Shown here one piece after another: positions 9,225 to 23,731 of a stretch of DNA of 64,000 bases (the first letter of the stretch is position 1; every line of letters starts with the position of its first letter). The notes beneath the pieces are model-generated. The model had not been told where the DNA came from. It made no database searches and saw only the letters and a list, made by a program, of their open reading frames with translations. The position numbers were made by a program, and so were the translations under genes. Where the stretch lies: the NCBI RefSeq assembly GCF_000337835.1, contig NZ_AOLM01000018.1, positions 1 to 64,000 of the forward strand, written 5' to 3'. Source of the DNA: Haloferax sulfurifontis ATCC BAA-897. GTDB lineage: Archaea > Halobacteriota > Halobacteria > Halobacteriales > Haloferacaceae.

Positions 9225-9872
9225 TCAGTACGACAGCGTCCACTGACGGTCGATGAGCCAGTCGTCCAACTTCCCGAGCGGGTCCTCCTCGACGTGCGTG
9301 CCGTGGCTCACGAGGACCGTCTCGATGTCGTACTCGAACAGTTTGACGAGGTTCCGCTCGGCTTCCTCGTGGCTCAGGTCGTTGAACTGCGCCGCCGGCG
9401 GGACGAGGAACCCCGGCGGGAGGCCGCGGCGGTCCGACCCCTCGACCACGTCGCCGGCGATGAACACGCCGTCGTCCTCCAAGAGCAGGCCGCTGTTTGC
9501 GACCGTGTGGCCCGGGACCTGCACGATTCGAATCCCGCCGTCGAGCACGTCGTCGTGGCGGAAGTGGCGGTCGGCCTCGACGGCGAGCGCGTCGTAGAAC
9601 CCCTTCGCGCCGCCGGGAACGAGCAGTTCGGGGTCGAACGCGTCCAACACGGCGGGGGTCCCGCCGAAGTGTCCCTCGTCGCCGTGGGTGATGACGAGTC
9701 GGTCGACGCCGCCGAACTCCGACTCCAGAATCTCGACTAACTCCTCGCCGTCGTCAGGGAACGCCGCGTCGACCAGCGTGGTCGCGCCGGTCGGTCGGTC
9801 CTCTATGACGAACACGCGGACGTGGTCGAACTGTATCGTGTACACTCCGTCTGCGACTGCGGTCACTGTCAT
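9225..9872 (-). CDS. MBL-fold hydrolase with altered metal motif (paralog of 13324-13971)
   Basis: 215 residues with the metallo-beta-lactamase fold: TTLVDAAF near residue 30, VITHGDEGHFGG at ~60 in place of the usual THxHxDHxGG, PGHTVANSGLLL at ~117 (GHT ligand), IAGDVVEG (bridging Asp) and LVSHGTH near 190 (last His). Two of the standard HxHxDH ligands are changed (His to Asp, Asp to Gly). The same change occurs in the paralog at 13324-13971, so it is a subfamily trait and not damage. Both copies flank the UspA-TctA-TctB genes. The substrate is unknown; glyoxalase II-like thioesters are possible. Confidence 0.8.
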   Translation of the reverse strand: MTVTAVADGVYTIQFDHVRVFVIEDRPTGATTLVDAAFPDDGEELVEILESEFGGVDRLVITHGDEGHFGGTPAVLDAFDPELLVPGGAKGFYDALAVEADRHFRHDDVLDGGIRIVQVPGHTVANSGLLLEDDGVFIAGDVVEGSDRRGLPPGFLVPPAAQFNDLSHEEAERNLVKLFEYDIETVLVSHGTHVEEDPLGKLDDWLIDRQWTLSY

Positions 9873-10023: not shown

Positions 10024-10455
10024 CTACTCCGCGTCGGCGAGGGTCGACACGACGGGACACGACGCGTTCAGGAGAATCGACTGGGCGACGCTCCCGAACA
10101 GCATCTTCCCGGTGCGCGAGCGGCGTCGCGGGCTCACCACGATGTAGCTCGCGTCCTGCGCTTCGGCGTACTCGATGACTTCGTCGGCCGGGTTACCGAC
10201 GAGCCCCACCGTCTCGTACGGGACGTCCAGCCCCGACACGGAGTCTGCGGCCATCTCGGCGGCCGCCGACCGAATCTGTTCCATGTCCTTCGGCGCTTCG
10301 GCCTGCGCGCTCGTCAGCCCGAGGTCGACGAACTCCGAGCGGGTCAGCGCGTGGACGACGTGGACCGATTCGTCGAACGCCGCCGCCAGCGATGCGGCTT
10401 CCGCGACAACGTGTGATGACCGACCTGAACGGTCGACCGCTGCAACAACGACCAT
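10024..10455 (-). CDS. Universal stress protein (UspA family)
   Basis: 143 residues from the ATG at 10455. N-terminal MVVVAAVDRSGRSSHVV matches the USP start, and the C-terminal ATP-binding loop appears as VVSPRRRSRTGKMLFGSVAQ followed by SCPVVST. The family signature is GxxGxxxxxxGS(V/T); here the first Gly residues are replaced by Arg-Ser-Arg, so ATP binding may be modified. A TATA-like box lies 25 nt upstream. Two copies of the island motif ACATCGTTGAAA lie 150-260 nt upstream, which suggests control with the IclR-linked genes. Small UspA proteins often accompany TctAB transporters in haloarchaea. Confidence 0.85.
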   Translation of the reverse strand: MVVVAAVDRSGRSSHVVAEAASLAAAFDESVHVVHALTRSEFVDLGLTSAQAEAPKDMEQIRSAAAEMAADSVSGLDVPYETVGLVGNPADEVIEYAEAQDASYIVVSPRRRSRTGKMLFGSVAQSILLNASCPVVSTLADAE

Positions 10456-10476
10456 ACCTGCGTGTACCACGGTGGG

Positions 10477-10486
10477 ATATAATATC
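10477..10486 (-). promoter_or_regulatory. TATA-like box of the uspA gene
   Basis: Read on the minus strand the segment is GATATTATATC, about 25 nt before the ATG at 10455, the normal distance for a leaderless archaeal transcript. Confidence 0.5.
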
Positions 10487-10605
10487 GTTTCGCCGAATCC
10501 CACTCGAAGCGACCACCGACCGGCGCGTCGACGCGACTCGCGGTCTCGATTCGCGGTTTCGACAGCCGACGCGACTCGTGAATTCGACCGTCGAACCGGG
10601 CGTGC

Positions 10606-10617
10606 TTTCAACGATGT
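10606..10617 (-). promoter_or_regulatory. Island motif copy: ACATCGTTGAAA
   Basis: The minus strand reads ACATCGTTGAAA, identical over 12 bases to copies before the IclR gene (17577) and before the SDR gene (19459). It lies about 150 nt upstream of uspA. Probably a binding site of the island's IclR protein; this is inferred from co-occurrence only. Confidence 0.5.
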
Positions 10618-10701
10618 CGTAATCAACTCGAAATCGGACGAAATCCGTGACACAGGTACGTCTGTAATTCCGAGGTGAATAGACAGAAAATTACCCCTGT
10701 C

Positions 10702-10718
10702 TTTCAACATCATCGAAA
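10702..10718. promoter_or_regulatory. Variant island motif, imperfect palindrome
   Basis: TTTCAACATCATCGAAA has outer arms TTTC/GAAA and, on both strands, resembles the ACATCGTTGAAA motif. It lies 85 bp from the exact copy at 10606, upstream of uspA. A second half-site of the same regulator is plausible. Confidence 0.4.
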
Positions 10719-11031
10719 TAATGGCGGTCAGTTCAATCGGTTCGCCCGCGACATCGACGCGGTCGCGTGGGGGTGTGGGAAACAGGAGAACACAGAAGCA
10801 ACTGGGGAGGGCGGGTGAGAAACGAAGAGGACAGCAGGTAAACGGAGAGAACAAGGTTCAGCCAGCCGTCGTGACCAGTCTCGGTGTCGGCTCCGGGCGC
10901 GTCTCGCCGGCTGTCGAAGCGCCGCACGCGTCGAGAACGCCGAGCGGTGCGCTGTTCGAGTGAAGGCTACGGGGCGAACCAGACGGAGAACCGAACGCGG
11001 TGTGAGAAAGGCGACGAGGTCTGCGGCGCCG

Positions 11032-12513
11032 TTACGCGCGAAGCGAGCGCACGGTGGGGAGCGCAATCGCGCCCAGACCGAGCAGGATGATGACGAGGGC
11101 GATGGGGCTCGTGAGGAAGATGGTCGGCGAGCCGCCCGAGAGGACGAGCGACCGACGGAGGTTCTCCTCCGCGATGGGCGCGAGGATGAGCCCGAGCACC
11201 ATCGGGGCCAGCGGATAGCCCCGGAGCCGCATCGCGTACCCCAGCACGCCCGCACCGAGCATGATCCACGCGTCGAACACGTTGCCGCGGAGGGCGATGG
11301 CCCCGATGACACACAGCACGAGGATGGCAGGCCAGATATGGGACTTCGGGATATTGATGAGGCGCGCCCAGTAGTTCGCGCCGAGCATGCCGAAGATGAG
11401 GATGAACACGTAGATGAGGAGGAACCCGACGAAGATAGTGTACAGCAAGACCGGCTCTTCCTGATACAGGCCCGGGCCGGGGTTCACGTCGTGGACCAAC
11501 AGCGCGCCGATGAGGATGGCGGAGACGGAGTCGCCGGGGATTCCGAGCGTCAGCGTCGGAATCAGCGCGCCGCCGGTGCTCGCGTTGTTCCCGGACTCGG
11601 CGGCCGCGACGCCGCGGATGTTCCCCTCGCCGAACGACGGGACGCTGTCTTTGAGCCAGCGGGTGGCCTCGTTGTACGTGATGAACGCCGCGATGTCGCC
11701 GCCGGCGCCGGGAATCGCGCCGATGAACGACCCGAGGATGCCCGACCCGACGCTGACCGGCGCGATGGACCGCAGGTCCGAAAGCGAGGGGAACACGCCG
11801 GTTATCTCCTGGTCGACGCGGTCGTTCCCGCTGTTGATGCCCTGCGAGTACTTGCGGAGCCCCTCGGCGATGCCGAACAGGCCGATCATGACCGCGATGA
11901 ACTCGACGCCGGTGAGCAGTTCGGGAATGTCGAACGTAAAGCGGTGGAAGCCGGTCACGGGGTCGATACCGACCGTCGCGACGAGCATCCCGAACAGACC
12001 CGAGACCATCCCCTTGGTGAGCGAGTCGCCGCTCACGCTGGCGATGATGGTCAGTCCGAAGAAGGCGAGCGCGAAGAACTCCGGGGACCGGAACCGGAGG
12101 GCGATGTCGGCGATGACCGGCGAGAAGAACATCAGCGCGATGACGCTGATGACGCCGCCGACGAACGACGCGATGGTGCTCACGCGAATCGCGCGGCCGG
12201 CCTCGCCCTTCTGGGAGAGCGGGTGGCCGTCGAAGATGGTCGCCGCCGCCGACGGGGTGCCCGGCGTGCGGATGAGAATCGCCGGAATCGACCCCGCGTA
12301 GACCGCACCGCCGTAGATACCCAACAGGAGAATCATCCCCTGACTCGGCTCCATCGTGAAGGTGAACGACAGCAGGACCGCGATGGTCATCGTCGCCGTC
12401 ATCCCCGGAATCGAACCCATGAGGATACCGAGTAATATCCCGCTGACCATGAGCAGGAGGACGAACGGGTCGGCGAGGTTGACGAGCGCCTGAGTGATAT
12501 ATTCGACGACCAT
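11032..12513 (-). CDS. tctA: Tripartite tricarboxylate transporter, large permease TctA
   Basis: 493 residues, the usual TctA length, with about 11-12 membrane spans. Conserved family segments are visible: MGSIPGMTATMTIAVLLSFT near residue 32, YGGAVYAGSIPAILIRTPGT at ~67, and the second-half GIPGDSVSAILIGALLVH with preceding ESGNNASTGGALIPTLTLG. It forms the transport channel with TctB, and TctC delivers the substrate; the system is driven by an ion gradient. Its start overlaps the tctB stop by one base (ATGA), so tctBA is one transcript. TctC is encoded 3 kb away on the other strand. The substrate is likely a carboxylate but not determined. Confidence 0.93.
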   Translation of the reverse strand: MVVEYITQALVNLADPFVLLLMVSGILLGILMGSIPGMTATMTIAVLLSFTFTMEPSQGMILLLGIYGGAVYAGSIPAILIRTPGTPSAAATIFDGHPLSQKGEAGRAIRVSTIASFVGGVISVIALMFFSPVIADIALRFRSPEFFALAFFGLTIIASVSGDSLTKGMVSGLFGMLVATVGIDPVTGFHRFTFDIPELLTGVEFIAVMIGLFGIAEGLRKYSQGINSGNDRVDQEITGVFPSLSDLRSIAPVSVGSGILGSFIGAIPGAGGDIAAFITYNEATRWLKDSVPSFGEGNIRGVAAAESGNNASTGGALIPTLTLGIPGDSVSAILIGALLVHDVNPGPGLYQEEPVLLYTIFVGFLLIYVFILIFGMLGANYWARLINIPKSHIWPAILVLCVIGAIALRGNVFDAWIMLGAGVLGYAMRLRGYPLAPMVLGLILAPIAEENLRRSLVLSGGSPTIFLTSPIALVIILLGLGAIALPTVRSLRA

Positions 12514-13028
12514 CAGAAGGTCACCACCAGCGGAAGTTGCGGCAGTAGCCGCGACACCGGGATGACGCCTTCAGGCAGGCGCACGAGGAAAATCCGGGCG
12601 AAGATGTAGAACAGCGCGATGGGGAACCCAATCGACAGCGCCACACCCAGCAGTTTCGACCGGATGTCCGAGTAGTAGAGGACGACCGGCATGAACAGCA
12701 TAGTCGACACGAGGAACCCCAAAACCGGCATCAACAGGACGTACCCGACGAGGAACGCCGCGACGGCGGCCGCCGGTCTGAAGTCGAACTCCGAGATTTC
12801 GAGTTCCGTCTCGGAACCGGTCAGCACGTCGATACCCGCGAAGAAGATGATGCCGACCGACACCGCTATCGGGAAGAACGACGGCCCGACGCCGTCACCC
12901 GACGGGAACTGGCTCGCGAAGAAGATGACGACGGCCGAAAACAGGATGAAGAAGACTGACAGCGGACTTGAACGAACACTCTCCAAGCCGATTCTATCAA
13001 GGACGGCCCCGACTTTCTGAATGACCAT
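12513..13028 (-). CDS. tctB: Tripartite tricarboxylate transporter, small permease TctB
   Basis: About 171 residues from the ATG at 13028 (MVIQKVGAVL); an upstream start is possible but less likely because the TATA-like box lies at about 13068-13075. Four membrane spans are predicted, in the order typical of TctB: one near SVFFILFSAVVIFFASQFPS, then PSFFPIAVSVGIIFFAGIDV, and two close spans AAAVAAFLVGYVLLMPVLGF and MLFMPVVLYYSDIRSKLLG onward. First gene of the tctBA transcript. Confidence 0.88.
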   Translation of the reverse strand: MVIQKVGAVLDRIGLESVRSSPLSVFFILFSAVVIFFASQFPSGDGVGPSFFPIAVSVGIIFFAGIDVLTGSETELEISEFDFRPAAAVAAFLVGYVLLMPVLGFLVSTMLFMPVVLYYSDIRSKLLGVALSIGFPIALFYIFARIFLVRLPEGVIPVSRLLPQLPLVVTF

Positions 13029-13044
13029 TATTTGTTCTGCCTCG

Positions 13045-13057
13045 TGGTATGATACCA
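13045..13057. promoter_or_regulatory. Palindrome TGGTATGATACCA at the tctBA start site
   Basis: Perfect 6-bp arms around one central base, 17-29 nt upstream of the tctB ATG and just downstream of an AT-rich TATA-like run (gtaataaacata, 13068-13079). The position suggests an operator over the transcription start. It does not match the ACATCGTTGAAA motif, so a different regulator may act here. Confidence 0.4.
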
Positions 13058-13323
13058 AGCAATCGTATGTAATAAACATATTGGTCTTTCCGCGGCCGCT
13101 CGGGGCTGAAAGTCACGATTTCGACACGAAGACTACGTGCGGTCGGGACTATCGGCCAGTCGCGGTCGGAACTCGCTATCGAGAGTGGACGTTCGCACAC
13201 ACCGAGGCGGGTCTCGGCGGGCGAGCGATACAGTAGTGAATCTGATAGCTCTGCCGTCGAGGGCGCCGCGTTTCGCGTCTATCGATAGAATTAACCAGCG
13301 TTACGAACTACCCTTCCACCGGA

Positions 13324-13971
13324 ATGAGTGTTAGCAACGTCACCGAGGGTATCGACCAGATTCAGTTCGAACACGTCCGGGTACTCGTGTTGAAGGACAC
13401 GCCGGCGGGGAAGACGACGCTCGTCGACACCGGCTTCGACGAGGACGGCGACGAGTTAGTCGAGATTCTGGAGCGGGAGTACGGCGGCGTCGACCGCGTC
13501 GTCATCACCCACGGCGACCACGGCCACCACGGCGGCCTCCCGTCGGTGATGGAGGCGTTCGACCCCGAACTCGTCGCGTCGGCCAACGAGTCGAAGCTCC
13601 ACGAGGCCATCGACTACGAGCCGGACGTGGCGTTCACCGACGGCGACGTGCTCGACGGGAATATCCGCGTCATCGAGGTGCCGGGCCACACGAAGGCGAC
13701 GTCGGCGCTCCTGCTCGAAGACCGCGGCATCCTCATCTCCGGGGACACCCTCGACGGGGCCGACCGCGCGGGCCTCCCCGCGGGGTATCTCCTCCCGCCG
13801 CCGGCGCTATTCAACGACGACCACGAGGCCGCCGAAATCAACCTCTACGACCTCCTGCAGTACGACTTCGAGACGCTTCTCGTCTTCCACGGCTCGCACG
13901 TCTTCGAGGACCCCAAGGGCAAACTCGACGACTTCCTCGTCGAGCGCGAGTGGGACCCCCGGCCGGAGTGA
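13324..13971 (+). CDS. MBL-fold hydrolase with altered metal motif (paralog of 9225-9872)
   Basis: 215 residues, closely similar in length and sequence to the protein at 9225-9872 (DQIQFEHVRVLVLKD versus TIQFDHVRVFVIED; shared TLVD, VEILE, GKLDD). The metal motif reads VITHGDHGHHGG, again lacking the second His and the Asp of HxHxDH. Later ligands are present: PGHTKATSALLL, SGDTLDG and VFHGSH. It is divergent from tctB and convergent with the zinc dehydrogenase. A role in metabolism of the imported compound is inferred from position. Confidence 0.8.
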   Translation: MSVSNVTEGIDQIQFEHVRVLVLKDTPAGKTTLVDTGFDEDGDELVEILEREYGGVDRVVITHGDHGHHGGLPSVMEAFDPELVASANESKLHEAIDYEPDVAFTDGDVLDGNIRVIEVPGHTKATSALLLEDRGILISGDTLDGADRAGLPAGYLLPPPALFNDDHEAAEINLYDLLQYDFETLLVFHGSHVFEDPKGKLDDFLVEREWDPRPE

Positions 13972-14220: not shown

Positions 14221-15264
14221 TCAGTCCCGAAGGACCGAAACGTCGAACACCGGCTTGCAGGTCTCGCCGGAGAGGAACGCCTCGAAGGCGTCTTCGGACT
14301 CGGTGAGCCGGAACCGGTCGTCGAGGAACGTGGCGTGGTCCACGTCGCCCGAGCCGATGAGTCGGAACGCCCGCTCGAAGTCCTCGAAGGTCGCGCCGTA
14401 GGTACACTGGAGATCGACCTCCGCGCGGACGAGCGGCGTGTACTCCATCGTGGTCTCGCCGGTCTGACCGACAAGGACGATCTGGCCGCCCTTGCGGACC
14501 TGCTCGACCGCCATCGGCAGTCCCGACGGGTGGCCGGTCGTGTCGAACACCACGTCGAAGCCGACGCCGCCGGTCAGGTCGCGCTGGGTGGCGGTCAGGT
14601 CGTCTTCTTCGATGTTGACCGCGGGGTAGCCGAGCTCCTCCGCGAGCGGCAGTCGGTAGTTCGTGTCCCGACCGACGCCCGCGACGACGACTTCAGCGCC
14701 CTGCGAGGCGGCCACCTGCGCGCAGAGCAACCCGATGGGTCCCGGCCCGGCGACGAGCACTCGGTCGCCGGCCTTGACACGGGAGTTCTGAATGACCGCG
14801 CGCGTACAGATTGCCGTCGGCTCGACGAGCGCCGCGTGTTTCGGTTCGACGTTCGACGGGACCGACTGGAGCGCCGACTCGGGGACGGCGATGTAGCCGG
14901 CGTACGCCCCGTCGAGGTCGATGCCGGTCAGGGTCGCGTCCTGACAGATGCTCTCCTCGCCGATCTGGCACTGGAAACACTCGCCACAGCCGCGAATCGG
15001 GCGCTCGACCACGCGCTCACCGACGGAAAACCGGGTGGCTTCGTCGCCGCGCTCGACCACGCGGCCGGTGTACTCGTGGCCGATGATAGTCGGCATATCC
15101 ATCCGCTCGAAGGCGGACTTGAACTTGTAGATTCCCGCGTCGCTCCCGCAGAGTCCGGCGTAGTCGACTTCGATGAGGACCTCGTTCGACGCCGGCTCGG
15201 GCGTCTCGACGTCGAGGAGTTCCATAGCTCCGGGCTCTCGGCTCGTTTTGGCTAACCCGCGCAT
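14221..15264 (-). CDS. Zinc-dependent medium-chain alcohol/polyol dehydrogenase
   Basis: 347 residues from the ATG at 15264 (MRGLAKTSREPG). The catalytic zinc motif is intact: AGLCGSDAGIYKF (Cys, ~38) and IIGHEYTGRVVERGD (GHE). The structural zinc cysteines occur as CGECFQCQIGEESIC. The NAD(P) Rossmann turn is VAGPGPIGLLCAQVAA near 170. Related to threonine/sorbitol/galactitol-type dehydrogenases. It is divergent from tctC, so it probably oxidises the imported hydroxy acid or a product of it; the substrate is not known. A minus-strand TATA-like box is at 15289-15295. Confidence 0.88.
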   Translation of the reverse strand: MRGLAKTSREPGAMELLDVETPEPASNEVLIEVDYAGLCGSDAGIYKFKSAFERMDMPTIIGHEYTGRVVERGDEATRFSVGERVVERPIRGCGECFQCQIGEESICQDATLTGIDLDGAYAGYIAVPESALQSVPSNVEPKHAALVEPTAICTRAVIQNSRVKAGDRVLVAGPGPIGLLCAQVAASQGAEVVVAGVGRDTNYRLPLAEELGYPAVNIEEDDLTATQRDLTGGVGFDVVFDTTGHPSGLPMAVEQVRKGGQIVLVGQTGETTMEYTPLVRAEVDLQCTYGATFEDFERAFRLIGSGDVDHATFLDDRFRLTESEDAFEAFLSGETCKPVFDVSVLRD

Positions 15265-15288
15265 ACATCTCCTTGAAAACCGCCGGGG

Positions 15289-15295
15289 TATAAAT
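15289..15295 (-). promoter_or_regulatory. TATA-like box of the zinc dehydrogenase gene
   Basis: GATTTATACC on the minus strand about 25 nt before the ATG at 15264. The correct spacing supports that start codon and a leaderless transcript. Confidence 0.5.
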
Positions 15296-15473
15296 CTACG
15301 CTCTTGGGGGAGAAGCTTGCGGGGTCGGTCGACACAACCCGAGATATCCAATAATGTCGCTCGCGCGCGAGTCCCTGCGAAGCTCCCAGCTCGGCCGCCG
15401 CTCGCGGAGACGCCGACCGTCCGAACTGCACCGCGGTATCGACCGCCGCGCCATATTCGGAGGGACCACAATG

Positions 15474-15496
15474 CTTATTGTATGGATTGTTCAAAC
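15474..15496 (+). promoter_or_regulatory. tctC promoter with a variant island motif
   Basis: A TATA-like cttattgtat (15474-15483) lies 25 nt before the tctC ATG. Directly downstream, ATTGTTCAAAC (15486-15496) matches 9 of 11 positions of ATCGTTGAAAC before the IclR gene and would overlap the transcription start. Regulation by the IclR protein is inferred. Confidence 0.4.
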
Positions 15497-15507
15497 ATTC
15501 GGGTACA

Positions 15508-16518
15508 ATGGGAGACGACACCATTAGCAATCGGAGTGGACCCAGCGCGCTGAACAGACGGAACTTCATCAAGGCCGCCGGCGTCGGCGGAGTGGCGCTT
15601 TCTGCCGGCTGTCTCGGCAGTCTCTCCGGCGAGCAGGAGTGGCCCTCTCGGCCGGTCGAAGTCATCTCCCCGTGGTCGGCCGGGGGCGGAGCCGACCGGA
15701 CCAGTCGCGCGGTCGCCGACGCGGCCGAGAACCACACCGATGTCTCGTGGAACGTCAGCAACCAGACCGGCGGCTCCGGCTCGGTCGGGATGAACGCGGC
15801 GGCCAACGCCGAGCCCGACGGCCACACCATCGGCTGTACGGCCCCCGAAATCGCGCTGTTCGAGCACCTCGGAATCGCCGACCTCAGCCCCGACGACATC
15901 ACGCCCATCATGCAGTACACCGAGTTCCCCGCGGCGCTCGTCGTCAGCGAGGACGCCGAGTTCTCCACGCTCGACGAGTGGATTACCTACGGGCAGGACA
16001 ACACCCTGCAGATGGCGAACTCCGGCTTCGGCTCGTCGTGGCACATGGCCGCGGCGGGTATCGCCAGCGAGGCCGGCGTCAACGTCGAACACATCTCCTA
16101 CGAGGGTGCCGCCCCGGCCATGACGGCCGTCGTGAACGGCGAGGTCGACTGTACCGCGGTCGGCGCGGCCGAGGTCGCCCCGCAGGTCCAAGACGGCGGG
16201 CTGTCCGCCCTCGGCGTGGCGTTCGACCAGCAGGTCGAGGCGCTCCCGAACACGCCGACGCTCGCGGACCAGGGCCTCGACATCTCCATCGGCTCGTGGC
16301 TCGCGCACTTCGCGCCCGCCGGCATCGACGACGAGCTGAAACAGCAACTCGCCGACGTGTACAGCGCCGTCTACGAGGACGACTCGTTCGTGGAGTTCAT
16401 GGAGAACAACAACTTCATCCGCGTCGAACGCGGCCCCGACGAGCTCCAGGACTTCCTCGACCAGCAGTACGAGTTCTACGGCAACCTCGTCGACGAACTC
16501 GGCATCGAAGAGCAGTAA
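15508..16518 (+). CDS. tctC: Tripartite tricarboxylate transporter substrate-binding lipoprotein TctC
   Basis: 336 residues from the ATG at 15508. The N-terminus has a twin-arginine signal with lipobox (RRNFIKAAGVGGVALSAGC), as usual for haloarchaeal lipoproteins, so it is exported folded and lipid-anchored. The TctC/Bug fold follows: VEVISPWSAGGGADRTSRAV near residue 50, VSNQTGGSGSVGMNAAANA, and PTLADQGLDISIGSWLAHFA with PAGIDDELKQQL. It delivers the substrate to TctAB (11032-13028). It is followed by the RraA-family and IclR genes in the same direction. Confidence 0.92.
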   Translation: MGDDTISNRSGPSALNRRNFIKAAGVGGVALSAGCLGSLSGEQEWPSRPVEVISPWSAGGGADRTSRAVADAAENHTDVSWNVSNQTGGSGSVGMNAAANAEPDGHTIGCTAPEIALFEHLGIADLSPDDITPIMQYTEFPAALVVSEDAEFSTLDEWITYGQDNTLQMANSGFGSSWHMAAAGIASEAGVNVEHISYEGAAPAMTAVVNGEVDCTAVGAAEVAPQVQDGGLSALGVAFDQQVEALPNTPTLADQGLDISIGSWLAHFAPAGIDDELKQQLADVYSAVYEDDSFVEFMENNNFIRVERGPDELQDFLDQQYEFYGNLVDELGIEEQ

Positions 16519-16715: not shown

Positions 16716-17405
16716 ATGCACACGATAGAGCCCGACGTAGAGCGACCGGACCGCGAACTCGTCGAGGCGTTCGAGGAGATCCCGAGCACCATCGTCTCCG
16801 ACGTGACCGGCAACATCGGACTGACCATGGACGCCGGCCTTCGCCCCGCCTACGACGGCGTCGAGATGGCCGGGACCGCGGTCACGGTGAAGGCCGCCCC
16901 CGGCGACAACCTCATCATCCACAAGGCGATTACGCTGACCGAGCCCGGCGACGTGCTCATCATCGACTGCGACGGCTACACCGACACCGGCCACGTCGGC
17001 GAACTGATGTGCACCTCGTGTCAGGCCAACGGCCTCGCCGGACTGGTCATCGACGGCGCGTACCGCGACAGCCGGGAAATCGCCGAGATGGAGTTCCCGG
17101 TGTACGGCCGCGGCGTCAACCCGCAGGGACCGCTCAAGCAGGACCCCGGCTCCATCAACGTCACCGTCTCCGTCGGCGGCGTCAGCGTCGACCCCGGCGA
17201 CATCGTCATCGGCGACGACGACGGGCTGGCGGTCATCCCCCGCGAGGGAGCCGAGGAAGTCCTCGAACGCGCCCACGAGAAGCTCAGCGCCGAGGACTCC
17301 GTCCGCGAGGAAGTCCTCGAGGGCGAGTACCTCTACGAACTCAACGGCTACGACGAGCTGTTCGAGAACCTGACCATCGTCGGTCCCGAAGACTCGATTC
17401 AGTAG
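16716..17405 (+). CDS. RraA-family protein (HMG/CHA aldolase or oxaloacetate decarboxylase type)
   Basis: 229 residues. The family core is present: STIVSDVTGNIGLTMDAGLR at ~22, PGDNLIIHKAIT, ELMCTSCQANGLAGLVIDGA then YRDSREI (Arg and Asp that hold the substrate and metal), and VSVDPGDIVIGDDDGLAVIP. Members split 4-hydroxy-4-methyl-2-oxoglutarate or 4-carboxy-4-hydroxy-2-oxoadipate, or decarboxylate oxaloacetate; others lack known activity. Placement between tctC and the iclR gene suggests a late catabolic step releasing pyruvate, but that is inference. It may be transcribed with tctC (197-nt gap). Confidence 0.85.
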   Translation: MHTIEPDVERPDRELVEAFEEIPSTIVSDVTGNIGLTMDAGLRPAYDGVEMAGTAVTVKAAPGDNLIIHKAITLTEPGDVLIIDCDGYTDTGHVGELMCTSCQANGLAGLVIDGAYRDSREIAEMEFPVYGRGVNPQGPLKQDPGSINVTVSVGGVSVDPGDIVIGDDDGLAVIPREGAEEVLERAHEKLSAEDSVREEVLEGEYLYELNGYDELFENLTIVGPEDSIQ

Positions 17406-17576: not shown

Positions 17577-17588
17577 ACATCGTTGAAA
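17577..17588 (+). promoter_or_regulatory. Island motif copy before the iclR gene
   Basis: ACATCGTTGAAA within CCAACATCGTTGAAACG; it lies 43-54 nt before the IclR ATG and just upstream of a weak TATA-like element (ctattaggg). A site that close to the promoter fits autoregulation. Confidence 0.5.
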
Positions 17589-17630
17589 CGAACCGGTGCT
17601 ATTAGGGACGCGGTGGCCCATCGTCGAGTC

Positions 17631-18404
17631 ATGACGAACTCCACCGGGTCGGGCTCGCGGCGGATACAGAGCGTCGGACAGGCGTTCGACATCATCAGAT
17701 ATCTTCGCGAGGCCGACGGCGCGACGCTGTCGGAGACCGCCGAGGACATCGAGATGCCGGTCAGCACGGCGCACATCCATCTGGCGACGCTCGTGGACAC
17801 CGACTACGTCGTCAAGGTCGGAAACGAGTACCGCTGTAGCCTCCGGTTTCTGGAGATGGGCGGGTCGATGCGCGACGGGATGGCGCTGTACCGGGTCGCC
17901 AAGCCGGAGCTCGACGAACTGAAAGAACAGACCGGCGAGCACACCAACGTGACGGTCGAGCAAAACGGGTTCGCCGTCCAGCTCTACAAGGCCCAGAGCC
18001 CGGAGTCAATCGACGACGACGCGCCGCTCGGCGACCACCTCTACCTGCACTCGACGGCGACGGGGAAGGCGATGCTCGCGGAGCGCTCGCGGGACGAGGT
18101 CGACCGCATCGTCGACCGCCGCGGCCTCCCCGCCCTGACCGACGACACCATCACCGACCGCGAGGCGCTCCACGAGGAACTCGAAGCGATTCGCGACCGA
18201 GGCTACTCCATCAATCGCGGGGAACACTACCCCGGTGTCTGCGCCGTCGGGACCGCCATCGTCTCCGAACCGGACGACGCCGTCGGTGCGATAAGCATCA
18301 GCGGCCCGATGAGCCGCATCGAGGACGGCCGCATCGAAGAGGAACTCGGGCCGGCGCTCCTGAACAAGAAGAACATCATCGAGCTGAAAATCAAGCAGTA
18401 CTGA
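17631..18404 (+). CDS. IclR-family transcriptional regulator
   Basis: 257 residues from the ATG at 17631. The N-terminal winged helix is typical: RRIQSVGQAFDIIRYLREAD, then ATLSETAEDIEMPVSTAHIH (recognition helix) and LVDTDYVVKVGNEYR (wing). The C-terminal effector domain keeps LHSTATGKAMLAE, RGYSINRGEHYPGVCAVGTA and VGAISISGP. It probably senses the imported carboxylate or a breakdown product and controls the surrounding genes. The motif shared by several intergenic regions here is the best candidate for its operator. Confidence 0.9.
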   Translation: MTNSTGSGSRRIQSVGQAFDIIRYLREADGATLSETAEDIEMPVSTAHIHLATLVDTDYVVKVGNEYRCSLRFLEMGGSMRDGMALYRVAKPELDELKEQTGEHTNVTVEQNGFAVQLYKAQSPESIDDDAPLGDHLYLHSTATGKAMLAERSRDEVDRIVDRRGLPALTDDTITDREALHEELEAIRDRGYSINRGEHYPGVCAVGTAIVSEPDDAVGAISISGPMSRIEDGRIEEELGPALLNKKNIIELKIKQY

Positions 18405-18464: not shown

Positions 18465-19361
18465 TCACTCCGGCGGGCTGTCCCACTCGGAGCCGTCGTC
18501 GGCCGGTTCGTAATCGAGGACCGCCTTCGCGTGGTCGGTGTCGAACCAGCGGGCCTTGTTGCCGCTCACGGCGTAGAACGTGTCGTAGGTGACCGACTCG
18601 TCTTCGAGACAGCATTCGAGCAGGTGCGCGAAGTCCCGCTGGGAGGTCCACGTCGCCTTGAGCCGCTTGACCATCTCCTCGTACTCGGGACTCCCGCGCT
18701 CCCACGACCCCGTCTGCGACTGGTCCCACACCTCTCCCTCCTCGACTTTGTGCTCGTCGCCGCGGTCGACGCCGCGCTCCGCGTCGCCGTAGGGGTGGTC
18801 GTACCGCTCGGTCCGGACGCTGGAGATGCGAATCGAGTAGACCTGGTTCGGCGCGCCGTCGCGGCGGGCGTGCGTCCGACAGATGTGCTCGCCGAACACC
18901 TTCGAGGCACCGTAGTAGCCGTCGGGCTTCGGGAGCGTCTCGTGGGTGAGTCGAAGCGGGTCGTACTCGCTGGGATAGTCCTCCTCGTAGAGGTCGGGCG
19001 CGAGGTCCTCCTCGTACAGCCCCATCACGCGCTGGGAGGAGGCGTAGATGAGCTTCTCGACGCCGGCGTCCTCCATCGCCTTGAGGACGTTGTACGTCCC
19101 CATGATGTTCGGCTCGATGATGTCCTCGAAGGCCGCGCCCGCGTCGGACTGCGCGGCGAGGTGGATGACGGCGTCCTGCCCGTCGAACGCCGGGCGGATG
19201 GCCTCGTAATCCGCGATGTCGGCGACGAACGTCTCGTACTCCGGATGCTCGGTCCGGTCGAGATACGTGAACTCGTACTCGTCGCGCTCCGCGAGGTGGT
19301 TGAGAATCGCTTCGCCCGCCTCACCGAACGGACCCGTGACTAGCACTTGCTGCGTAACCAT
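18465..19361 (-). CDS. NAD-dependent epimerase/dehydratase (extended SDR)
   Basis: 298 residues. The Rossmann motif is modified (VLVTGPFGEAGEAIL for TGxxGxxG); AVIHLAAQSDAGAAF follows, then a catalytic Ser-Tyr-xxx-Lys set (YASSQRVMG; YYGASKVFGEH). The layout resembles uronate dehydrogenase and the haloarchaeal NAD-dependent sugar dehydrogenase (Azf) group more than UDP-sugar epimerases. The ATG at 19361 puts the Rossmann strand at the N-terminus. Copies of the island motif lie about 100 and 210 nt upstream. A dehydrogenase of the catabolic island is likely; substrate unknown. Confidence 0.85.
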   Translation of the reverse strand: MVTQQVLVTGPFGEAGEAILNHLAERDEYEFTYLDRTEHPEYETFVADIADYEAIRPAFDGQDAVIHLAAQSDAGAAFEDIIEPNIMGTYNVLKAMEDAGVEKLIYASSQRVMGLYEEDLAPDLYEEDYPSEYDPLRLTHETLPKPDGYYGASKVFGEHICRTHARRDGAPNQVYSIRISSVRTERYDHPYGDAERGVDRGDEHKVEEGEVWDQSQTGSWERGSPEYEEMVKRLKATWTSQRDFAHLLECCLEDESVTYDTFYAVSGNKARWFDTDHAKAVLDYEPADDGSEWDSPPE

Positions 19362-19458
19362 CGTTACTGAGGGATACGGAACTCCCCAATTTAAATCTTG
19401 GTGGCGGCGGTAAGTTCGTCTCAGTCGAAACAGCGCCGTCACTGACCCTCGATTTTCG

Positions 19459-19660: not shown

Positions 19661-19668
19661 TTTTTATA
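19661..19668 (+). promoter_or_regulatory. TATA-like box of the DHQase-like gene
   Basis: tttttata lies about 25 nt before the ATG at 19691, which supports that start and a leaderless transcript. Confidence 0.5.
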
Positions 19669-19690: not shown

Positions 19691-20359
19691 ATGGCTGGGG
19701 ACGCATACGCGTTGGCCGGAGTGACCGAGACGCTGACCGAAGCGGCGGCCGCGGAGGGCATCGCCGACTACGTCGAGTTCCGGATGGACGGGGCGACCCA
19801 CCCGCTCGACGCGCTCGACGAGTACGACGGGACGCTCCCGCTCATCGTCTCGAACCGGCCGGAGTGGGCCGGCGGCACCGCCGGCGAGTCCGACCGACTG
19901 GAGACCCTCGCGGCCGCCGCCGCGTTCGACGCCGTCGAGACGGTCGACGTGGAACTGCGGACGATTCGCGAGTGCGAGTGGCTTCGGGACGAACTGCGCG
20001 AGCACGACGTCGAACTCATCGTCTCCCACTACGACCGACAGAGTACCCCTCAGAAATCAGAACTGTTACAGATAATATCAGAATGCAGTGAGTACGGCGA
20101 CGTGGCGAAGCTCGTCGTCTCCGCCGAGGAGAAGTCGGACTCGCTCGCGCTGTTACAGTCGTTCAACGCCGCCTCCGAGCGGGGCGTGCGAGTCACCGGC
20201 TACGCGTTGGGGGAAATCGGCCGCCACACCCGCGTTATCGGCGTGTTCTACGGTGCGTCGATTGCCTATGCGCCCATCGTTAGCGACGAGCACTCTCCGA
20301 ACGACATCGACCTCGGAAAGCTGTCGAACCTCCTCGAATGGGTCTCTTCGGCGCGGTGA
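19691..20359 (+). CDS. Divergent type I 3-dehydroquinate dehydratase homolog
   Basis: 222 residues of the AroD TIM-barrel family. Kept: VEFRMD near residue 36, the Schiff-base lysine in DVAKLVV, and the Arg of GRHTRVIG. Changed: the catalytic His motif SYHDF reads SHYDR, so Tyr stands where the catalytic His should be; the Glu of RxxxEGG is Ala (RPEWAGG); the Gln of APGQ is replaced (SPNDIDL). It is therefore probably not a normal dehydroquinate dehydratase. It is followed 511 bp later by a more canonical copy. It may be a catabolic or regulatory relative belonging to the island, whose motif lies upstream. Confidence 0.8.
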   Translation: MAGDAYALAGVTETLTEAAAAEGIADYVEFRMDGATHPLDALDEYDGTLPLIVSNRPEWAGGTAGESDRLETLAAAAAFDAVETVDVELRTIRECEWLRDELREHDVELIVSHYDRQSTPQKSELLQIISECSEYGDVAKLVVSAEEKSDSLALLQSFNAASERGVRVTGYALGEIGRHTRVIGVFYGASIAYAPIVSDEHSPNDIDLGKLSNLLEWVSSAR

Positions 20360-20870: not shown

Positions 20871-21614
20871 ATGAAACTCGACGAGTCTGCACTGGCGGCG
20901 ACAACAAACGACCTCACACGAGAGGTAGACGCACGAGGGGTGGCAGACCTCATCGAATTCCGGATGGACAAAGCGGACGACCCGCTCGAACAACTCGCCG
21001 CGTACGACGGCGAACTCCCGATAATCGCGACCAATCGCGCTCGCTGGTTCGGAGGGAAGGCGAGCGACACCGGACGACTGGACGACCTGTTTTCCGCATC
21101 TCGGTACGACGCCGTGGAGTTCGTCGACATCGAGCTCGAGACCGTTCGCGCCAAGGAGTGGCTGGCCCACGAGTTCCGCGAGAACGACGTCCAGCTCATC
21201 ATCTCGCATCACGACTTCGAGGAGACGCCCGACCGAGACGTGCTCGACGCGATTATCGAGCAGTGCGCGGAGTTCGGCGACATCGCGAAGGTGGCGGTGT
21301 TCCCCCAGAACCAGCGTGACACGCTCACGCTCTTGGAGGCCGTCAACGACGCGACCAACCGCGGCATCGACGTCGCCGGCATCTCCATGGGCGAAATCGG
21401 GAGCCACACGCGCGTCATCGGCCACCTCTACGGGTCGAAACTCGGATACGCGCCGCTCCTCGCGGACGACAACGACTACGCGCCGGGGCAGATTCCGCTC
21501 GAAAAGCTCGCCTCGCTCATCGAACTCACCAAAAACGAGCACGTCGACGGGCAGGTCATCGACACCATTCGGAGCGAGGTGTCGGTGCCGAAGGAACTGA
21601 CGCTCTCGGACTGA
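20871..21614 (+). CDS. aroD: Type I 3-dehydroquinate dehydratase
   Basis: 247 residues from the ATG at 20871. Converts 3-dehydroquinate to 3-dehydroshikimate by a lysine imine, third step of the shikimate pathway. Seen: IEFRMD near residue 27, the catalytic His in IISHHDFEETP, the Schiff-base Lys in DIAKVAVFP, the Arg in MGEIGSHTRVIG, and the Gln in YAPGQIPLEKL. The Glu of RxxxEGG is Phe (RARWFGG), the only unusual position. This copy is the likely biosynthetic enzyme; the tandem neighbour at 19691 is not. The C-terminus extends about 20 residues beyond the barrel. Confidence 0.9.
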   Translation: MKLDESALAATTNDLTREVDARGVADLIEFRMDKADDPLEQLAAYDGELPIIATNRARWFGGKASDTGRLDDLFSASRYDAVEFVDIELETVRAKEWLAHEFRENDVQLIISHHDFEETPDRDVLDAIIEQCAEFGDIAKVAVFPQNQRDTLTLLEAVNDATNRGIDVAGISMGEIGSHTRVIGHLYGSKLGYAPLLADDNDYAPGQIPLEKLASLIELTKNEHVDGQVIDTIRSEVSVPKELTLSD

Positions 21615-21688: not shown

Positions 21689-22639
21689 TCAGTCGGCAAG
21701 TCGCTTGACGTCCGTCAGCACCGCGCTCGCCGTCTCGGGACCGCCGGCCCCTTGGCCGGTGATGCCGAGTCGACCGCAGTAGTCGGCTTCGATTTGGACG
21801 GCGTTTTCCGTTCCCGACGGGGCGACCGCCCCGTTTTCGGGCACCAATCGCGGGCCGACGCGAACCGCGCCGTCCGCGACTTCGACGATGAGTCGAATCG
21901 TCTGGCCGTCCTCGGCGGCGAGGTCGAGCATACTGCCCGAAAGCTCCTGAATCCCCTCGACGTCGGCGTCGTCGAGCGTGTACTCCGTCTCGCCGTCCGA
22001 GAGGACGTTGGCGACGATGACGCCCTTGAGCGCCGTGTCCGTGCCGTCCACGTCGAAGGTCGGGTCGGCCTCGGCGACGCCGAGGTCTTGGGCTTCCGCG
22101 AGCACGTGCTCGTAGTCGAGACCCTCGGCGGCCATCCGCGAGAGGACGAAGTTCGCCGTCCCGTTCAGCACGCCGTAGACAGCCGACACCCGCGACGAGC
22201 CCACGTCCTCGATGGTCGAGAGGATGGGAAGCGCGCCGCCGACGGTCGCGCCGAAGCGGACGGTCCCCTCGCTTTCGGCTTCGAGCGCGCGCAGGTCGGC
22301 GTACCGTTCCGCGACCGGGCCCTTGTTCGCGAGCACGACGTGGCGGTCGTCGGCCAGCGCGCGCTCGACGTGCGAGAAGCCGGGTTCGGCGTCGCCGAGC
22401 GTCGTCGGCGTCGCTTCCACCAACACGTCGTAGTCGGCGTCGAACACCGACTCGGGGTCCGCGTCGCCGACCACGCCTTCTTCTCGCTTCTTCGACAGCA
22501 CCGCGTCGGCGTCGATGCCGTCGGCGTCGACGACGGCGCTTTCCGAGTCCGCGAACGCGGTCACGACGTGGCCGTGTTCGGCGGCCAGTTCGACGACGGC
22601 GCTTCCGACCGCGCCGGCACCGAGGACGCAGAGTCTCAC
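21689..22639 (-). CDS. hom: Homoserine dehydrogenase
   Basis: 316 residues. N-terminal Rossmann motif LCVLGAGAVGSAVVELAAE, then LVEATPTTLGDAEPG and VVLANKGPVAERY (catalytic Lys region), FGATVGGALPILSTIEDV, and the family signature LNGTANFVLSRMAAEG with AEADPTFDVDGTDTALK. It reduces aspartate semialdehyde to homoserine for Thr and Met. The short form has no C-terminal ACT domain, but the upstream gene encodes an ACT-type protein and overlaps it by 4 nt, so feedback control in trans is plausible. Confidence 0.93.
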   Translation of the reverse strand: MRLCVLGAGAVGSAVVELAAEHGHVVTAFADSESAVVDADGIDADAVLSKKREEGVVGDADPESVFDADYDVLVEATPTTLGDAEPGFSHVERALADDRHVVLANKGPVAERYADLRALEAESEGTVRFGATVGGALPILSTIEDVGSSRVSAVYGVLNGTANFVLSRMAAEGLDYEHVLAEAQDLGVAEADPTFDVDGTDTALKGVIVANVLSDGETEYTLDDADVEGIQELSGSMLDLAAEDGQTIRLIVEVADGAVRVGPRLVPENGAVAPSGTENAVQIEADYCGRLGITGQGAGGPETASAVLTDVKRLAD

Positions 22640-23169
22640 GCGCGACCCCCCACCGTCAGCGGCTCGACGAGCTGGAGGTCCTTCTCGTCGGCGATGTCGC
22701 GCATCGCCGAGAGGACGTCTTCGGTGGACCCCGATTCGGCGGCCAGTTGCAGGCGGGCGCTGGAGACGTCGATAGAGCCCGCGGGCGCGGACAGCGAGAT
22801 GTCGGTGACCGTCGCGTTCCGCGTCGCCTCGATCTGCGTCAGCGTGTCGGAGAGGTCCGTCTCGATGAGGTGACCCGAGAGGATGATGGTCAGACGCTCG
22901 CTGTAGCGCTCGGTCCCGGCCTGAATGACGTTGATGCCGGCCTCGCTCAGCCCCTCGACGATGTTGTCGAAGCGGTCGGGCGTCGCCTCGATGTCGACTT
23001 CCACCGGGATGTAGCCGCGCGGGGTGACGTTGCCGCGCTCGTGGAAAATCGAGAGGAGGTTCCCCCCGTGTTCGGCGATGGGTTGCAACGAGCGCAGGAG
23101 TTCGCCGGGCTCGTCGACGAGTTCGAGTCGGAGCGTGTACGCCTGAACGTCGTTGCGGACCTCACTCAT
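22636..23169 (-). CDS. ACT-domain amino-acid-binding protein
   Basis: 177 residues from the ATG at 23169. The first half is an ACT domain (LRLELVDEPGELLRSLQPIA then EHGGNLLSIFHERG), followed by a second, weaker regulatory half (LIETDLSDTLTQIEATRNA). The gene overlaps hom by 4 nt and is transcribed first. A regulatory subunit that binds threonine or another aspartate-family amino acid and modulates Hom is the natural reading, unproven here. Confidence 0.85.
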   Translation of the reverse strand: MSEVRNDVQAYTLRLELVDEPGELLRSLQPIAEHGGNLLSIFHERGNVTPRGYIPVEVDIEATPDRFDNIVEGLSEAGINVIQAGTERYSERLTIILSGHLIETDLSDTLTQIEATRNATVTDISLSAPAGSIDVSSARLQLAAESGSTEDVLSAMRDIADEKDLQLVEPLTVGGRA

Positions 23170-23731
23170 CCGCACAACACCGTACTACCGTGTCGTTCAT
23201 TGTCGGAAATCGAGCGAGCACACCCATATACGTATTGCGTTCGAACGGGTCGGCCGCCGACCGCGACCGTCGGCCCGTCTGCTGTGAGAGAGTCATCACT
23301 GAGGGTTCGCCGTACGTGCGTCGGCCGGAAATGTACTCAGGTTCGCTACAAAGATTACCGCACCCGGATACCGTGCGCGAATCGAGTTGTGCTCGCTTTA
23401 CACACAAGCACTATCGAGGGCAACACTCCCGACTCGGGTGTGTGTGCGAACATCGTGCAAATACCGCCGTATTAATCCAGAATTGGTTTATTTACGTCTG
23501 TTTGGGGGATTTTCTATCGTATTATTCATTTTCCACTCGCTGAGCGTTCGTCGGTCGTGTTCGTGAGCGCCGTGAGTCATGCATTAATAAAACACAGACG
23601 CTTCCGCGACACTCTATTTACAACGAATAATAGTTAACATCTCGCACGGCGTATACGCTGGTGTATCCGCCGCCGACGGGAAGTGAGAGGGTTGCCGTCT
23701 GTGGACGGGTGCGACAGAAGGAAACACAGAG
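23170..23731. other. AT-rich intergenic region
   Basis: 560 bp with no supported gene. The segment 23470-23640 is clearly AT-richer than its surroundings (for example gaataatagttaac near 23625-23640) and probably holds promoters for both flanking, divergent genes. Confidence 0.5.

Follow-up and report, generated by a model that had tools for sequence, protein, structure and literature searches.

C, the gene at positions 19691–20359 of the window (the whole 64,000-nucleotide stretch of DNA analysed), encodes a paralog of type I 3-dehydroquinate dehydratase (DHQase) in which the catalytic dyad is broken. We give roughly an even chance to the reading that C is a pseudoenzyme, dead as a DHQase and retained as a non-catalytic, likely ligand-sensing part of the gene cluster in which it lies. 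The parts of this reading differ in strength: it is highly probable that C is not a DHQase and rather likely that it is kept for a non-catalytic role, while its service as a ligand sensor for the cluster, suggested by analogy, is possible at somewhat less than even odds.

A DHQase fold with a broken active site

The uninterrupted ORF of C encodes 222 amino acids with a single PF01487 domain. The protein matched PF01487 (DHquinase_I) with 117 bits (cut-off 22.2) and the NCBIfam aroD equivalog with 85 bits, under the cut-off of 139. Its AlphaFold model was a confident barrel (pLDDT 84.7, pTM 0.85), and all 50 PDB matches listed for the model were DHQases or DHQase–shikimate dehydrogenases (TMq 0.75–0.85). 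Both marks of the structural family, a PF01487 score above the cut-off and the (beta/alpha)8 fold, were thus found in C. The positions of the active-site residues, which were assigned by alignment to solved enzymes and haloarchaeal relatives, are as follows.

19661–19668, + strand: TATA-like box TTTTTATA, 22 nt 5′ of the ATG of C
19691–20359, + strand: C (222 aa), paralog of DHQase fold whose catalytic dyad is broken
19868–19870, + strand: GCC, Ala60 at the position of Glu86
20030–20032, + strand: TAC, Tyr114 at the position of the catalytic His143 (alignment ungapped)
20108–20110, + strand: AAG, Lys140 at the position of the imine-forming Lys170
20231–20233, + strand: CGC, Arg181 at the position of the carboxylate-binding Arg213
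20303–20305, + strand: GAC, Asp205 at the position of Gln236 (acidic in 11/11 C proteins)

In active type I DHQases, as described in PMC9902378, Lys170 makes the imine, His143 aids its formation and hydrolysis, and the carboxylate of the substrate is gripped by Arg213 and Gln236. The His143–Lys170 dyad is broken in C by the Tyr at the His143 position, and of the carboxylate grip the Arg is present, while Gln is replaced by Asp or Glu in all 11 C proteins. The H143Q mutation abolished the activity of Escherichia coli AroD, and the DHQase domain of Candida albicans Aro1, in which Gln replaces His and a suitable Lys is lacking, shows no activity (both according to PMC9074039). Because of these roles of the dyad and the two precedents, it is very unlikely that C is a DHQase. 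The candidate explanation that it is an ordinary second DHQase was ruled out by the broken dyad.

The residue changes had been read correctly in the first-pass annotation, namely Tyr at the His position, Ala instead of Glu in RxxxEGG, the loss of Gln from APGQ and the retention of the imine Lys and the Arg. The possibility raised there that the His is simply shifted by a one-residue gap did not hold, since this stretch aligns without a gap. The further remark that a His stands one residue earlier applies to Haloferax; elsewhere this residue is Ala (G252) or Tyr (G255 and G133). The SHYD motif, whose conservation among orthologs was to be checked, was present in 7/7 Haloferax C proteins and in none from outside the genus, and the Tyr itself in 10/11. 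The change at the Glu86 position tells little, because the intact copy at 20871 (B, see below) also lacks this Glu and the solved Staphylococcus aureus DHQase has Gln there; Glu86 appears from these sequences to be no strict mark of activity.

Conservation of the C proteins and related companions

The comparison set comprised 88 DHQase-like sequences, 86 of which were used; the weak remnant L127:2178-2681 and the L130 fragment were excluded from counts and trees, and L003, L005, and L007 were additionally left out of the second tree. The ordinary haloarchaeal enzymes (A, with WEGG), the B proteins (with RWFGG), and the companions formed separate groups among the 86 sequences. His, Lys, Arg213, and Gln236 were intact in 34/34 A-type and 38/38 B rows, the former count including the A-type L007, which is gapped at Glu86 and was listed separately. 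The lists of C and D proteins (D, a second group of companions) consist of the members reached by searches of sampled genomes, the order-wide searches being drawn samples of 392 genomes.

The dyad was broken in all 11 C proteins, which come from Haloferax and other haloarchaea: ten have Tyr and Lys, while one, from plasmid CP050017.1 of Haloarcula sp. JP-L23, has His and Arg and also Gln for Arg48. The C clade, with the JP-L23 member inside, received a support of 100/99 in trees whose bootstrap is not fully settled. Beyond Haloferax, the C proteins showed 41–60% identity and their branches were long. Arg213 and Glu46 occur in 11/11, Arg48 and Arg82 in 10/11, and an Asp or Glu at position 236 in 11/11 of them. 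In the alignment of ten C sequences, 53 of 222 positions were invariant, including E46, R48, the Tyr at 143, K170, and R213. The joint invariance of these five gave a hypergeometric P of about 7e-4, a value that refers to positions chosen by the analyst and excludes JP-L23; the JP-L23 member, found later, departs at three of these positions (R48, Tyr at 143, and K170).

The D companions (n = 3) were found in G138, G217, and as the second companion of G133; the copies of G138 and G217 adjoin B, and that of G133 lies about 12 kb off. They have Tyr for Lys and Ile, Val, or Arg for His, have lost Glu46, Arg48, and Arg82, and retain Arg213 in 3/3. Their long branches in the second tree are a caution for their placement. 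Companions with Tyr for the catalytic Lys lie at L097:10557-11285, L129:9897-10631, and L131:2204-2935, all on the − strand. In the G192 companion His, Lys, and Gln are present and Arg48, Arg82, and Glu86 are lost; the second tree placed it beside C, weakly (SH-aLRT 10 at a nearby fork). A short ORF directly after B in G236 (L091:10243-10746) showed weak DHQase similarity and is perhaps a remnant companion.

Selection on C

Pairwise comparison of six Haloferax genomes gave an omega of 0.25 for C (95% 0.17–0.37, codon bootstrap), 0.07 for B and 0.03–0.16 for six other genes of the neighbourhood; thus, C had the highest dN/dS of the eight genes tested. No internal stops were found in C in the 6/6 Haloferax species compared. 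The TTTTAT core of its TATA-like box was unchanged in 7/7 Haloferax. C is therefore under purifying selection, though weaker than that on its neighbours: the omega, the lack of stops, the conserved TATA-like box, and the confident barrel model all indicate constraint. Since C evolves faster than B, some room is left for slow decay. The assumption that C is a pseudogene was unsupported, given an omega well below 1 and the absence of stops.

The intact neighbour B and the loss of the ordinary aroD

PF01487 genes in the genome of the window (G000) are just C and the following gene.

20871–21614, + strand: B, dyad-intact DHQase that has His, Lys, Arg, and Gln but Phe at the Glu86 position; sole such gene in the genome

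The retention of His, Lys, Arg, and Gln in this tandem copy, noted previously, was borne out. The residue at the Glu86 position was Phe in 36/38 and Ala in 2/38 B proteins, and B appears to be the sole DHQase in many genomes. Among 15 Haloferax genomes, eight carry B and lack the ordinary aroD and seven show the opposite. In G004 the ordinary aroD is flanked by a methylase/TFB pair on one side and DUF7575/DHQ synthase II on the other; the flanks of this site are about 850 bases apart there and about 130 bases apart in 8/8 B-type Haloferax. No aroD remnant was found in the G000 junction (G000:C19:139177-139310, equal to L176:478-611). That an assembly gap conceals the ordinary aroD was rejected on the basis of the short flank distance in all eight genomes and the missing remnant in G000. 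In 8/8 B-carrying Haloferax there is thus a clean deletion of the ordinary aroD next to DHQ synthase II: a relative carried by the cluster, at a different locus, has displaced the housekeeping gene.

B was present in 37/392 genomes of the order, and A and B occur together in at least eight (G121, G133, G138, G169, G192, G214, G217, and G339). Chorismate synthase and shikimate dehydrogenase were found in all 28 genomes taken as B-only; this set includes G002 as an addition and omits G059, five of its members rest on a protein-query search instead of Pfam, and G145 gave one further partial match, a weak one. Type II DHQase was absent from the 11/11 genomes searched. Because the B-only genomes have these two enzymes of the pathway and no type II enzyme, we infer that B probably supplies their DHQase step. 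The ordinary aroD of Halobacterium salinarum (OE1477R) is required for growth without aromatic amino acids, according to PMC4162585.

The gene cluster around C and B

The neighbourhood of C and B in the window contains the following genes.

10024–10854, − strand: universal stress protein, long ORF (family in 12/22 neighbourhoods compared)
11032–13079, − strand: TctA and TctB transporter genes
13324–13971, + strand: MBL-fold hydrolase of the cluster
14221–15471, − strand: Zn-dependent alcohol dehydrogenase
15478–16518, + strand: TctC solute-binding protein
16716–17405, + strand: RraA-like/4-carboxy-4-hydroxy-2-oxoadipate aldolase
17583–18404, + strand: IclR-family regulator
18465–19442, − strand: NAD-dependent SDR, Azf-like
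21689–22639, − strand: second homoserine dehydrogenase-like gene (housekeeping copy at G000:C18:204657)
22636–23175, − strand: ACT-like (amino acid-binding) protein (weak Pfam match, under the cut-off)

A second MBL-fold-like gene at 9225–9872 of the window, outside the main cluster, resembles by eye the one at 13324–13971. The set that recurs with B and C comprises TctABC, the MBL hydrolase, the Zn-dehydrogenase, the RraA-like aldolase, IclR, the SDR, the second homoserine dehydrogenase, and the ACT-like protein, with TRAP genes at some of the loci. The homoserine dehydrogenase and ACT-like pair (21689–23175) travels with B, the housekeeping hom being located elsewhere.

In Haloferax, the RraA gene was found at 99–100% identity in 7/15 genomes, which are exactly those with C; none of the eight others has C. 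G003, which kept B, lacks both the RraA gene and C, and a single deletion of adjacent genes could account for this. Outside the genus, many genomes carry B and cluster genes without C (e.g., G339, G236, G331, and G214). Most genomes that have B together with cluster genes lack C, which is therefore dispensable in them. The IclR gene is directly upstream of C in G133, where IclR, C, and B follow one another on a single strand; one gene separates it from C in the window, and it is farther away in JP-L23. In G350, the set carries an A-type DHQase in place of B, an indication that a DHQase is required by the set as such. Genes for malic enzyme, phosphoglycerate dehydrogenase, and PEP carboxykinase surround C in the JP-L23 cluster (L174, CP050017.1).

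Quinate- or shikimate-like ring acids would fit as the substrate of the cluster, considering the DHQase, the RraA-like aldolase, and the PcaR/PcaU-like score of the IclR protein. However, the homoserine dehydrogenase, the ACT protein, and the three JP-L23 genes do not obviously fit such a substrate. A search among open-licence PMC papers found no literature on this cluster.

Alternative explanations

The best-surviving alternative, which we regard as unlikely, is that C is an enzyme with another Schiff-base reaction, where Lys140 would form the imine and Tyr114 would serve as acid/base, the substrate being one that the cluster uses in an aldol or dehydration reaction, and the acidic residue at position 236 would set specificity. 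The joint retention of Tyr and Lys in 10/11 C proteins at 41–60% identity beyond the genus fits such new imine chemistry and is a point against the sensor reading; Glu46, Arg213, and the acidic 236 residue, all in 11/11, are likewise in favour, and a Tyr next to the imine Lys is known in other class I aldolases. On the other hand, in the JP-L23 member, which belongs to the clade, Lys is replaced by Arg and Arg48 by Gln, and clusters lacking C exist, so no essential step need hang on it. The earlier suggestion of either another lysine-imine reaction or lost activity therefore stands in part: loss of DHQase activity is well supported by the inactive H143Q AroD, the dyad broken in 11/11 C proteins, and an intact neighbour able to carry the reaction, while an imine reaction is possible for the ten members with Tyr and Lys and is weakened by the Arg of JP-L23.

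Less likely still, C may be a non-catalytic, prozyme-like partner forming a hetero-dimer with B and tuning its activity or stability. The type I DHQase structure of PMC4114755 is homodimeric, the dead Aro1 domain still takes part in dimerisation (PMC9074039), and C immediately precedes B, in the same orientation, at the Haloferax loci and in G252 and G133. The two genes are, however, apart in G255 and JP-L23, most genomes with B have no C, and B of G003, the only DHQase there, would by inference work without it.

It is improbable that C is a functionless decaying duplicate. Its dN/dS, the highest in the neighbourhood, its long branches outside Haloferax, and the further loss of the dyad in other companions would agree with decay, but the omega clearly below 1 in a stop-free gene, the occurrence of C in several lineages with conserved signature residues, and the conserved TATA-like box argue against it. 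Finally, continued dehydration of 3-dehydroquinate by C, in which Tyr or the adjacent His would stand in for His143, is most improbable in spite of the retained Lys, Arg213, and Glu46, considering the effect of H143Q in E. coli AroD (PMC9074039), the lack of Gln236, the intact B next to it, and the lack of conservation of the adjacent His beyond Haloferax.

Proposed role of C

Returning to the pseudoenzyme reading, C would have arisen on the B branch of the haloarchaeal type I DHQases and lost the His/Lys dyad through replacement of His by Tyr in most members and of Lys by Arg in a single one. In the lid, the residue holding the carboxylate of the substrate would have changed from Gln to Asp or Glu, with the (beta/alpha)8 fold, Glu46, and Arg213 retained. 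B would dehydrate dehydroquinate for aromatic synthesis, the ordinary aroD being deleted, and presumably for the catabolic cluster too. C would most likely bind a ring-acid intermediate of the cluster and might report it to cluster control, that is, to the IclR regulator or to B via hetero-oligomerisation. Further points against the sensor reading are that C is the fastest-evolving gene tested, that many clusters lack it, and that IclR proteins usually bind their own effector.

A wider proposal, which we put forward as rather doubtful, is that haloarchaea, along no fewer than two branches (C and D), turned cluster-borne DHQase duplicates into stand-alone pseudoenzymes sensing the ring-acid metabolite of the cluster, an archaeal single-domain counterpart of the QutR type, while the cluster DHQase displaced the housekeeping aroD.

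Public records name the C proteins plainly "type I 3-dehydroquinate dehydratase"; as a consequence, gene counts would credit these archaea with a spare aroD that is probably non-working. C offers a compact case, testable since Haloferax is genetically tractable, of a duplicated metabolic enzyme that has been retained although its catalytic pair is lost, and the B/aroD case shows a cluster-borne relative replacing a housekeeping gene.

Comparison with known systems

Type I DHQases (PF01487; AroD of Salmonella and S. aureus, OE1477R of Hbt. salinarum) share with C the fold and the equivalents of Lys170, Arg213, Glu46, and Arg48, whereas C differs from them at His143 (Tyr), Gln236 (Asp), and Glu86 (Ala) and scores under the aroD equivalog cut-off. 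The C. albicans Aro1 domain resembles C in being of type I with the catalytic His replaced and the reaction done by another DHQase. Unlike C, it is a fungal domain of a multi-enzyme protein (PMC9074039), its Lys is also gone, and a type II enzyme compensates, while C has a type I neighbour.

The fungal repressors QutR, GaaX, and TanX consist of degenerate AROM domains including PF01487, and the working hypothesis of the authors is that these are inactive inducer binders (PMC10512348). They are three-domain proteins paired with Zn2Cys6 activators, whereas C comprises one PF01487 domain of 222 aa, lies near an IclR gene, and has a putative regulatory role; thus, the order shikimate kinase–DHQase–shikimate dehydrogenase of these repressors was not found in C. 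They are nevertheless alike in being degenerate copies of shikimate enzymes. The repressor genes adjoin that of the transcription factor of a catabolic set; for C, the distance to the IclR gene varies from none in G133 to one gene in the window and more in JP-L23. With its broken dyad, partial ligand site, catabolic cluster, and nearby regulator the anatomy of C would fit, by analogy, the QutR-type pattern.
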